DNA of 12,962 nucleotides from Dysgonamonadaceae bacterium. GTDB lineage: Bacteria > Bacteroidota > Bacteroidia > Bacteroidales > Azobacteroidaceae. Position 1 is the first letter of the stretch. Every line of letters starts with the position of its first letter. Below, one piece after another: positions 2,559-4,010 of the stretch. The notes under the pieces were generated by a model. That model had not been told where the DNA came from. It worked only from the letters and a program-made list of their open reading frames with translations, and did not search any database. The stretch covers positions 1-12,962 of the forward strand of contig JAISNS010000010.1 of the NCBI GenBank assembly GCA_031276105.1. The letters run 5' to 3'. The position numbers and the translations under genes were made by a program.

Positions 2559-2640
2559 TGTGTGTGTGTGTGTGTGTGTGTGTGTGTGTGTGTGTGTGTG
2601 TGTGTGTGTGTGTGTGTGTGTGTGTGTGTGTGTGTGTGTG
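2559..2640. repeat. (TG)41 dinucleotide microsatellite
   Basis: There are 41 uninterrupted TG units. On the minus strand the tract reads (AC)41 and follows ATG-CGT at 2647-2642, mirroring the right-hand tract at 3226-3281. From that ATG the minus frame gives M-R-T-(HT)n-Q and stops at TAG; no gene lies behind it in any frame. Tracts of this length are prone to slippage and to Z-DNA formation. The unit count may be affected by assembly. Confidence 0.95.
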
Positions 2641-2654
2641 TACGCATAATTCCG

Positions 2655-2679
2655 TTAACTTCCAAACGTTGGAAGTTAA
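2655..2679 (-). promoter_or_regulatory. Leader hairpin before the left ATG
   Basis: TTAACTTCCAA (2655-2665) pairs with TTGGAAGTTAA (2669-2679) across a 3-nt loop. It ends 7 nt before the minus-strand ATG at 2647. It is the counterpart of the stronger hairpin at 3186-3214. Confidence 0.7.
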
Positions 2680-2740
2680 TAATGTGTAATAAACTGTTAT
2701 TTACGGAAGCTGCCATATTGTTGTTTTACAAAAACCGCTG

Positions 2741-2772
2741 CAAATGTAATTCGTTTAGTCGGAATATGCAAA
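2741..2772 (-). promoter_or_regulatory. Bacteroidota promoter, left arm, facing left
   Basis: On the minus strand TTTG (2772-2769) lies 20 nt upstream of TACATTTG (2748-2741), matching the Bacteroidota primary sigma consensus TTTG-N19-21-TAnnTTTG. It would transcribe toward the (TG)41 tract, where no gene is visible. Confidence 0.65.
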
Positions 2773-3087
2773 CTTTCTGTGCGTTTTTATCACTCGCATC
2801 CGTCATTTCTTTTTCTTTCGTTTTCATACTTTCTGCTGTTTTGACTCGAAATGCTTTACTTCTTAAAAACAAAAAATTATATGCCGGTTGCCAACGGTTT
2901 CTTGTTCCAATTTTTCCCTTTCGTTTTCTATTTTTATCGTTCGCTGGTGTGTGTGCTTCCGCTTTCCTGCCCGTTTGATACTCATGAAATTATTAATTGA
3001 TAACTATATAACTATATCCGGAACCCCTTAACCTGACGGCTATGGGGCTTGACCCGCAATCCACCGAAAAAAAGATTTCGCCGAATA
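2773..3087. other. Spacer between the inverted arms, no convincing gene
   Basis: About 315 bp separate the two outward promoters. The strand read as plus is pyrimidine-rich (TTTCTTTTTCTTTCG). It contains only small ORFs: minus 2863-2985 (40 residues, starting MSIKRAGKRKHTHQ) and minus 2726-2827 (33 residues, overlapping the left promoter). A plus frame through 2766-2978 is hydrophobic but low in complexity. None shows a recognisable family. The end motif shared with the 190-428 element lies at 3032-3062. Confidence 0.5.
3032..3062. repeat. Solo end of the 190-428 hairpin element
   Basis: CCTGACGGCTATGGGG followed by CTTGACCCGCAATCC repeats the right-hand end and flank of the hairpin element (414-442), with single-base differences. 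No partner arm is seen upstream. It sits only 26 bp before the -33 element of the right promoter, so it may be a relic of an insertion or excision there. Confidence 0.7.
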
Positions 3088-3119
3088 TTTGCATAATCTG
3101 ATTTATTGAATTACATTTG
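3088..3119 (+). promoter_or_regulatory. Bacteroidota promoter of the PAP2 gene (right arm)
   Basis: TTTG (3088-3091), a 20-nt spacer and TACATTTG (3112-3119) fit the Bacteroidota consensus exactly. Transcription should begin near 3126, giving a leader of about 95 nt before ATG 3220. The left arm carries the same boxes and spacing, facing the other way. Confidence 0.75.
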
Positions 3120-3185
3120 CAGCGGTTTTTGTAAAACAACAACAAAGAATATGGCAACTTCCGTAAATAACAATTTATTACGTAT

Positions 3186-3214
3186 TATTAACTTCCAAAC
3201 TTTGGAAGTTAATA
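3186..3214 (+). promoter_or_regulatory. Strong leader hairpin just before the start codon
   Basis: Fourteen consecutive pairs (3186-3199 with 3201-3214) surround the core AACTTCCAAA / TTTGGAAGTT. The hairpin ends 5 nt before ATG 3220, so it would sit where an initiating ribosome must land. No T tract follows, so a translational or RNA-stability role is more likely than termination. Confidence 0.7.
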
Positions 3215-3219
3215 GAATT

Positions 3220-4010
3220 ATGCGTACACACACACACACACACACACACACACACACACACACACACACACACACACACACAACTTCGCGCTAATTATTG
3301 TTATTTCCTTTTTTATTATCCATCCAACTTTCGCACAAAAAGAGACGATAAAATCCGAAACGGTTTCGTCTTGGGTATTCATCGTTCCTTCGACATTGGT
3401 TTCTTATGGAATCATCCGGCAGTTTGTTCCGGCTTTACAGCGTTTGGATCGCAGTATCGACGACCAAGTTTTGCAAAACAGTCATCGCAGTTATATTTTT
3501 GACGATTATGTTCAGTATGCGCCTTATGCCGGGGTTTATCTGTCGGAATTATGCGGAATAAAAGCCAAACATAACACGCTCGACAGAACGATTGTACTTG
3601 CTTCTTCGATAATCATTTGCACAAGCGCAGTACAAATTTCCAAGCGTTTTACCGGCGTTACTCGTCCCGACAGTTCGAATAAACATGCTTTTCCGTCGGG
3701 ACACACGGCTACGGCGTTTCTCGGTGCGCACCTTTTGTTCAGGGAACATGAAGAGGTTTCGCCTTGGATAGGCGTCGCGGGATACGGGGTTGCGACGACA
3801 ACGGGCGTTATGCGCGTAATCAATCGCAAACATTGGTTCAGCGACATTGTTGCCGGCGCCGGCGTGGGTATAATCAGCGTTGAATTGTCTTATCTTCTCT
3901 TACCGGTGTGGCAACAGTTTTTTAAAATGAATGGCAAAGATAATTACATGGCAATCAATCCATTGATTAATCAAAACAGTTGGGGAATCAGTGTAGTGTC
4001 GGCATTTTAA
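3220..4010 (+). CDS. PAP2-family phosphatase, start out of frame behind an (AC)28 tract
   Basis: A membrane-associated phosphatase of the PAP2 (type 2 phosphatidic acid phosphatase) superfamily, which acts on lipid or polyprenyl phosphates. Motifs are complete: K-x6-RP (KRFTGVTRP), PSGH, and R-x5-H-x3-D (RVINRKHWFSD). Upstream in the same frame is a signal peptide, NFALIIVISFFIIHPTFA then QKE (from 3282), but that frame has no ATG, GTG or TTG before a TTG at 3396, which lies past the signal peptide. The frame is blocked upstream by TAG 3213. ATG 3220 reads M-R-T-(HT)n and stops at 3292. Losing one AC unit, or gaining two, would join the ATG to the signal peptide. Substrate unknown. It converges on sufB, 117 bp away. 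It may be phase-variable and OFF here, or a pseudogene. Confidence 0.8.
3226..3281 (+). repeat. (AC)28 dinucleotide microsatellite in the PAP2 start region
   Basis: There are 28 uninterrupted AC units directly after ATG-CGT. In frame they encode alternating Thr-His, placed in the N-region of the signal peptide. From the sequence, 27 or 30 units give an open frame through the PAP2 gene; 28 or 29 do not. Confidence 0.95.

Follow-up and report, generated by a model that had tools for sequence, protein, structure and literature searches.

Introduction

The first 12,962 nucleotides (nt) of contig JAISNS010000010.1 from a Dysgonamonadaceae bacterium (assembly GCA_031276105.1), hereafter the window, contain two outward-facing cassettes in inverted orientation, each with a promoter, a leader and a long dinucleotide tract, and they raise the question of what such a cassette does to the gene that lies beyond its tract. 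An initial annotation, made from the sequence alone, regarded them as a portable module that could place any gene under a phase-variable start codon. DNA inversion is the mechanism commonly associated with phase variation in Bacteroidales, and in the same order the surface loci of Bacteroides have invertible promoters that are switched by site-specific inversion; the cassettes likewise appear to concern phase variation of surface genes, through inversion there and through presumed repeat slippage here.

We hypothesise that the cassettes are phase-variable transcription attenuators for surface-protein genes, comparable to that of the pilus locus pil1 of Streptococcus gallolyticus, and from the sequence we put the probability of this reading at about 0.65. 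In pil1, GCAGA repeats within a leader open reading frame (ORF) are reported to set its length and longer leaders to prevent the terminator, a mechanism put to the test there with mutations and with flow cytometry (Danne et al., 2014; PMC3894217).

Anatomy of the cassettes and their copies in the genome

The two arms of about 190 bp, including TG/AC tracts of 41.5 and 28.5 units, are inverted copies of one another, as initially annotated; the left arm (2585-2772, minus strand) aligns to the right one with 89% identity (query 39-233, E 3.4e-70), a likeness far above chance level. Both have the pattern TTTG-N20-TACATTTG, which we take to be a promoter of the Bacteroidales -33/-7 type. Both leaders contain the expected hairpin, TTAACTTCCAA-NNN-TTGGAAGTTAA, and both have ATGCGTACAC shortly before the tract, at 3220 (plus strand) and 2647 (minus strand). 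The hexamer ATGCGT had been taken for the translation start at the end of an untranslated leader of about 95 nt, which is probably not the case: the frame is open from an earlier ATG, at 3151 in the right copy (MATSVNNNLLRIINFQTLEVNRIMRTHTH...) and 2716 in the left (MAASVNNSLLHIINFQRLEVNGIMRTHTH...), only 32 and 25 nt after the respective -7 box, and in both cassettes ATGCGT follows in the same frame 69 nt further downstream. A cassette is, on this reading of the frames, a promoter with a short leader ORF that ends in M-R-(TH)n.

The cassettes are not confined to the window. In the genome to which it belongs (G000; 2.58 Mb in 370 contigs, 86% complete), the -7 box and the bases that follow it, up to the leader start, have 75 matches with at most three mismatches, while a reversed control pattern has 0, so that the dispersed family suggested initially does exist. 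This count is a lower bound, as some leader matches (e.g. C1, C160, C166) lie outside the set; a few members of the set run off the end of their contig. Of these matches, 63 are alone on their contig and six contigs hold two, the contigs being short. From 78 stretches fetched, 76 copies were read, one false promoter match (L135, minus strand) having been removed from 77 rows. The number of AC units differs among copies, as had been expected, with tracts of 4 to 87 nt, and in 11 of the 76 copies (e.g. C105, C206, C208) the contig breaks off part-way through the tract; the cassettes fragment the assembly of this bin. Own-genome copies are 86-98% identical to each other, and tracts can be unlike where leaders are at least 95% alike, as with 59 and 39 nt in L176 and L199 or 57 and 87 nt in the right copy of the window and L200.

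The frame of the leader is kept. A stop within the first 23 codons occurs in 1 of 62 compared copies; under random substitutions 15.5 would be expected for 61 copies, if these are taken as independent, and 1 is observed. The comparison left out 12 of the 76 copies with no readable interval from ATG to tract and two with tracts that were too short (their frames are open), and the expectation a further one with more than 20 differences. Diverged copies, with MAIPLNNN and MTVLLISN forms, keep the frame too, while L203 shifts frame after LEV. Synonymous changes are not in excess in the leader (0.19 against 0.255 expected), and it is therefore the open frame that is kept and not clearly the peptide. 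One further locus of this genome (G000:C333:9534, L271) has an (AG)n-type leader of the form found in Dysgonomonas, beside the genome's own AC-type leaders.

A diverged form in related genomes

A DNA search with the window's leader in 58 genomes (the own genome and 57 relatives) gave, beyond the own genome, only weak matches to the palindrome in G015 (bin Iy174_bin41), and these led to a second form of the cassette. Many own-genome copies and G015 have a match to this palindrome, and none was seen in the Dysgonomonas leaders displayed. A scan upstream of FISUMP-type genes in the same genus found repeats at two loci of G014 (bin Ct408_bin100; for both bins the coordinates agree), with leaders ...FIFLAKSLEVSDILLERERER with (AG)23 and ...SLENLVVSDIFLNTHTHT with (AC)14, and one further locus with merely an A-run. 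The names of the bins and of the genus suggest that G014 and G015, like the window, may come from termite guts. The G015 leader, ...NFQNLEVNAILLERERER, precedes a NusG-like gene.

The diverged form has an (AG)n tract and a leader of the type ...NLEVxxILLERERER, and occurs up to 27 times per genome. Among 295 genomes of the order its pattern has matches in 3, and it also matches 64 stretches in named genomes. Carriers are Dysgonomonas hofstadii, D. sp. BGC7, ZJ279, UBA7710, UBA5412, PF1-14, UBA10850, 'Prevotella sp.' 10(H), 'Ca. Azobacteroides' MI.4_1 and further Bacteroidales bins. With at most two mismatches there are 27 in MI.4_1, 17 in UBA7710 (with one control match), 12 in D. hofstadii, 10 in ZJ279, 8 in G014, 7 in 10(H) and 4 in the own genome. 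An in-frame ATG is present in 61 of 67 AG leader records, in one of them, at the beginning of a contig, solely within the core. The AG pattern fixes part of the DNA core, which makes conservation of that core partly a matter of construction; the promoter-based AC set is unaffected by this. A protein search with one leader returned nine weak matches, among which is a protein annotated as hypothetical in D. hofstadii. In MI.4_1 a TAAGTAA right behind many tracts stops two phases; at L305, L307, L315 and L335 it follows the tract directly and closes two frames 4 nt apart, the third being open.

Pfam was run on 20 proteins chosen from the 49 listed downstream ORFs of relatives. Ten have a TonB plug domain (SusC-like), two are extracytoplasmic function (ECF) sigma factors, two NusG and two FG-GAP proteins, one matches Fib_succ_major and one glycoside hydrolase 130, and two have no match. 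The ECF sigma factor genes stand behind cassettes L310 and L333 in Dysgonomonas and the NusG-like genes behind L209 and L334, and a gene that looks HU-like by eye follows L210. Judging from these neighbourhoods, regulators may be phase variable as well.

Hairpins and the phase of the tract

A hairpin with a T-run follows the tract in sense orientation in 41/49 own copies (antisense, 24/49) and at 33/54 loci of relatives (antisense, 20/54). The count in relatives left out 13 of 67 records, which had fewer than 150 nt after the tract or runs of N. It comes from a revised criterion, with the T-run rule relaxed and the energy rule made stricter, the first version having given 29/55 sense and 16/55 antisense. 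In Dysgonomonas the hairpin sequences are, by eye, unlike from locus to locus. An Rfam search with the window and seven loci returned 0 matches above the gathering score.

If the tract governs the hairpin, its three phases should differ in whether translation arrives there. In the relatives the relation looked for was a longest phase that reaches the 5' arm of the hairpin, together with a shortest phase that ends 12 nt or more ahead of that arm. This holds at 33/33 loci, where 14.5 would be expected from dinucleotide shuffles, and in the own genome at 38/41, where shuffles give 26.9. By group it holds at 8/8 loci in MI.4_1 (1.6 expected), 6/6 in Ct408 (4.5) and 19/19 in the others (8.4). The MI.4_1 result is clean, as the reverse-complement and mirror controls pass at only 2 and 1 loci. 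Under a laxer energy rule 39/42 own copies show the relation, and two phases reach the hairpin in 36/42. At L304, L308, L314 and L349, which precede SusC or glycoside hydrolase 130 genes, a stop of a long phase lies inside the 5' arm itself.

The phases found in the assembly are not random either. With one of 42 own copies left out for want of an assignable phase, 33 are in the short and 8 in the long phase, compared with 26 long expected (P about 1e-8, although the copies are not fully independent). Provided that the assembly is correct, the majority of copies in this genome therefore look OFF. In relatives the long phase is seen at 0/8 loci in MI.4_1, 2/5 in Ct408 and 12/19 in the others.

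Genes downstream of the cassettes

The copies often precede genes for secreted proteins, as had been expected. Among own copies with 350 nt or more of sequence beyond the tract, 19/44 precede the strict start of one secreted family, MRTKILVLSxALxLSANLRAQVTIG...GAILDLN, and the family members tested have Pfam matches to Fib_succ_major, PKD, Ig_7 or Lcl_C, some below cut-off. That start lies 234-581 nt after the tract in 16 of the 19, the others being at 95, 1059 and 1061 nt. For the most part, then, the element is a separate short leader ORF upstream of the gene and does not supply its start codon; direct fusion applies to the PAP2-family gene of the window and to four loci of MI.4_1, and not to most of the 19. 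The suggestion that any gene might come under control is likewise to be narrowed, in that many cassettes accompany one paralogous family, the commonest target identified, although other targets occur: copies stand before genes for a SusC/TonB receptor and for an AraC-type regulator, before an FKBP gene and before the PAP2 gene of the window. A promoter of the form TTTG-N18-21-TAnnTTTG between tract and gene was found in 0/18 own stretches (7.6 kb) and 0/47 in relatives. One short-tract cassette (L157) stands before an FKBP gene that is followed by a gene resembling chorismate synthase by eye, an unlikely target of phase variation.

The features of the window are collected in Table 1. The left cassette had been said to face no gene; a secreted protein with a PKD domain, a member of the family above, in fact starts beyond its tract on the same strand. 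This FISUMP/PKD gene (568-2269, minus strand) is split into two overlapping frames and looks interrupted in this assembly. The hairpin after the left tract is part of a larger dispersed 'class A' palindrome, the outer stem of which starts about 31 nt after the tract; the class A tail, a long palindromic repeat (GGTACAGGG...CCCTGTACC, 2430-2560), is found again after many cassettes. Tandem TATAAAGCGTCTTTATACGTACA-like units occupy 2300-2410. Behind the right tract a hairpin was not found.

The right cassette, initially described as fused to a signal-peptide gene, does adjoin one, of the PAP2 family, and one phase would fuse the two (phase 0 is open to 4008), but in the phase of the assembly the leader meets a stop at 3292 and does not share the frame of the gene. 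No in-frame ATG, GTG or TTG precedes the signal peptide, the first being a TTG at 3396, and the gene therefore would need the ATG of the leader, in one of the three tract phases. The fusion looks derived, because among six PAP2 genes of relatives the four that were readable by pattern each carry their own candidate Met ahead of the signal peptide.

Table 1. Features of the window, with positions, strand and basis.
Feature	Positions	Strand	Basis or remark
Right promoter, TTTG-N20-TACATTTG	3088..3119	+	pattern; TTACATTTGCAGCGGTTTTTG has 75 genome matches with at most 3 mismatches
Left promoter, TTTG-N20-TACATTTG	2741..2772	-	pattern
Right leader ORF as assembled, MATSVNNNLLRIINFQTLEVNRIMR(TH)nTTSR and stop	3151..3294	+	ATGCGT is codons 24-25
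Left leader ORF as assembled, MAASVNNSLLHIINFQRLEVNGIMR(TH)nQ and stop	2555..2716	-	frame reading
Palindrome TTAACTTCCAA-ACT-TTGGAAGTTAA within right leader ORF	3188..3212	+	sequence
(AC)28.5 tract, presumed slippage site	3226..3282	+	sequence
(TG)41.5 on plus strand; read along the left copy's coding strand, (AC)n	2559..2641	-	sequence
Hairpin, then T-rich stretch, between left tract and gene	2450..2487	-	dG -25.1; offsets 71-108 after tract
Target of left copy, secreted protein MRTKILVLFTLLLSANLHAQVSIG... with PKD domain	1445..2269	-	start 289 nt past tract
Overlapping piece in other frame, weak Fib_succ_major (FISUMP) match	568..1521	-	31.4 bits, cut-off 33.9
PAP2-family gene	3282..4010	+	PF01569, E 4.7e-14; signal peptide NFALIIVISFFIIHPTFAQ

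Proposed mechanism and alternatives

In the mechanism that we propose, the promoter would drive a short leader ORF of about 25 residues, followed by a TH or ER di-residue repeat encoded by the dinucleotide tract. We infer that in living cells slipped-strand mispairing would change the repeat number, so that the ribosome would leave the tract in one of three frames, and that expression of the gene would follow the phase. In the short phase translation would stop within about 0-30 nt, the terminator-like hairpin would fold and transcription of the surface gene would end early (OFF). Translation in one or two other phases would carry the ribosome into or past the 5' arm of the hairpin, the terminator would be blocked and the gene would be transcribed (ON). 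At some loci, namely the PAP2 gene of the window and four of MI.4_1, the ON phase would be one ORF that continues into the gene. Attenuation is the likely read-out because the short leader ORF stands apart from the gene and a terminator-like hairpin usually lies between them. The anatomy, the dispersal, the targets, the hairpins and the way in which phase relates to hairpin are all read from the sequence itself.

Several observations weigh against this proposal. No qualifying hairpin was found at 21/54 loci of relatives and in 8/49 own copies, and antisense hairpins are also frequent. The phase test says nothing for Ct408, where the mirror control passes at 6/6 loci as well, and in the other relatives the reverse complement passes at 12/19 and the mirrored spacer at 14/19; composition therefore explains part of the relation there. 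The left copy of the window itself does not conform, with stops at 1, 26 and 33 nt and its hairpin at 71. Tract lengths come from fragmentary short-read assemblies, which can misstate them. Simple repeats were absent from 27/30 loci near FISUMP-type genes of relatives, and a recognisable -7 box lies within 130 nt upstream in just 44/58 AG leaders. L134 and L163 are promoter-end matches that have no leader ORF, a same-strand target is not evident for L132, L139, L152 and L159, and the missing synonymous excess described above belongs here too.

A further point of this kind leads to the alternative that we take most seriously, although we regard it as unlikely: a phase-variable translational fusion or coupling, in which the leader is the true N-terminus of the protein or brings ribosomes to the start of the gene, and the hairpins are incidental. 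Among AG loci with a called gene 90 nt or more from the tract, the phase that stays open longest passes the start of that gene or comes within 60 nt of it at 30/47, including L297, L327, L331, L333 and L348 of Dysgonomonas, which coupling or fusion would explain equally well. Fusion would also suit the signal peptide of the PAP2 gene, which lacks a start of its own and shares the frame of the leader in one of the phases, and L305, L307, L315 and L335 of MI.4_1, where one ORF of more than 4.5 kb runs from the tract through the surface gene; at L288 and L315 of the same genome a phase stop overlaps the ATG of the gene as called. In the own genome one phase is open to within 60 nt of the gene start in 13/16 copies, as against 7/16 on the reverse strand, a weak control that leaves the figure suggestive. 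However, at the SusC-type loci L304, L308, L314, L317, L326, L329, L337 and L340 the long phase ends in or past the hairpin, 66-302 nt before the gene, and most targets seen own a start and a signal peptide. The two readings, attenuation and coupling, could both hold.

The remaining explanations give the cassettes no direct role in switching the neighbouring gene, or concern the window pair itself. A dispersed repeat, MITE-like (miniature inverted-repeat transposable element) or co-duplicated upstream DNA, that carries a microsatellite and does not regulate anything would account for the many closely similar copies with unlike repeat modules downstream, for those cut inside the tract and for copies with no evident same-strand target; yet the same anatomy recurs at diverged sequence in several genera together with a link to surface genes, the assembled phase is non-random and the leader frame is kept open, and we consider this explanation improbable. 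Small-peptide genes, whose product (NLEVxxILL and the repeat) would act in trans with the neighbouring gene secondary, are a more distant prospect still: the core residues L, V and I are invariant in 14 hand-picked leaders from several genomes, and the hypothetical protein annotated in D. hofstadii is leader-like, but against these stand the missing synonymous excess, the variable N-terminal half and the link to downstream surface genes. An invertible promoter or the terminal repeat of a transposon, as the two inverted arms of the window pair about 300 bp apart might suggest, we hold to be scarcely credible, given that most copies stand alone on their contig, that the promoter end occurs at 73 other places and that a single ORF of at least 60 residues overlaps the interval between the arms, running out of the TG tract. 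For the family as a whole, transposon or MITE terminal repeats are likewise disfavoured, as 63 of the 75 matches, on contigs that are short, have no partner on their contig.

Relation to known systems

Attenuation of the kind preferred here has its closest counterpart in pil1 and pil3, which also have a repeat tract in a short leader ORF and an intrinsic terminator before surface genes, where the cassettes have a terminator-like hairpin (PMC3894217). In pil1 the short phase stops well before the hairpin and the others just before, within or after it, much as here, and two of its three frames are 'high', which parallels the two phases, out of three, that arrive at the hairpin in most own copies. 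By analogy we suggest that the cassettes work like pil1, which is a likeness of mode and not a claim of kinship between leaders. The repeat unit differs, being AC or AG here and GCAGA in S. gallolyticus. What is new, set against pil1, is the phylum, the copy number (at least 75 per genome, compared with two loci), a leader family common to several genera, a range of targets that takes in SusC, FISUMP, FG-GAP and regulator genes, and the loci at which leader and gene are fused. The initial annotation knew of no described family with this layout; for Bacteroidales or Dysgonomonas no description of a simple-repeat attenuator was found in the open-licence literature searched, but the working principle had been published for pil1, the sole mechanistic match recognised there. 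Another paper was set aside as a precedent, as it deals with leader peptides of the ordinary kind and with Campylobacter phase variation at homopolymers (PMC11955535).

The cassettes may also be compared with the simple sequence repeat (SSR) contingency loci of Neisseria, Haemophilus, Campylobacter and Helicobacter, in which hypermutable simple repeats likewise shift the frame of surface genes. The feature that marks such loci, a long pure repeat whose length shifts the frame of a surface-gene transcript, is present here in the sequence. In SSR loci the tract usually lies inside the gene itself or its promoter, whereas here it lies in a separate leader ORF that is repeated throughout the genome.

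Implications

Taken as a whole, the cassettes might be modular, phase-variable leader switches that have spread through Dysgonomonas-like Bacteroidales and supply the surface of each cell with as many as about 75 independent ON/OFF bits, most of them OFF, with regulators (ECF sigma factors and NusG-like antiterminators) among the targets and with one slippage event switching whole loci; for this broader picture we see an even chance. At least 11 of the breaks between contigs of this bin would be explained by the cassettes. If the proposal is true, tract length modulo 3 would predict ON or OFF for each gene and could be read from sequence, the single-cell state of the surface would become testable from long reads, and a mechanism described in streptococci would become a general one. 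A slippage attenuator present dozens of times per genome would then be a second, independent source of surface diversity in the Bacteroidales.

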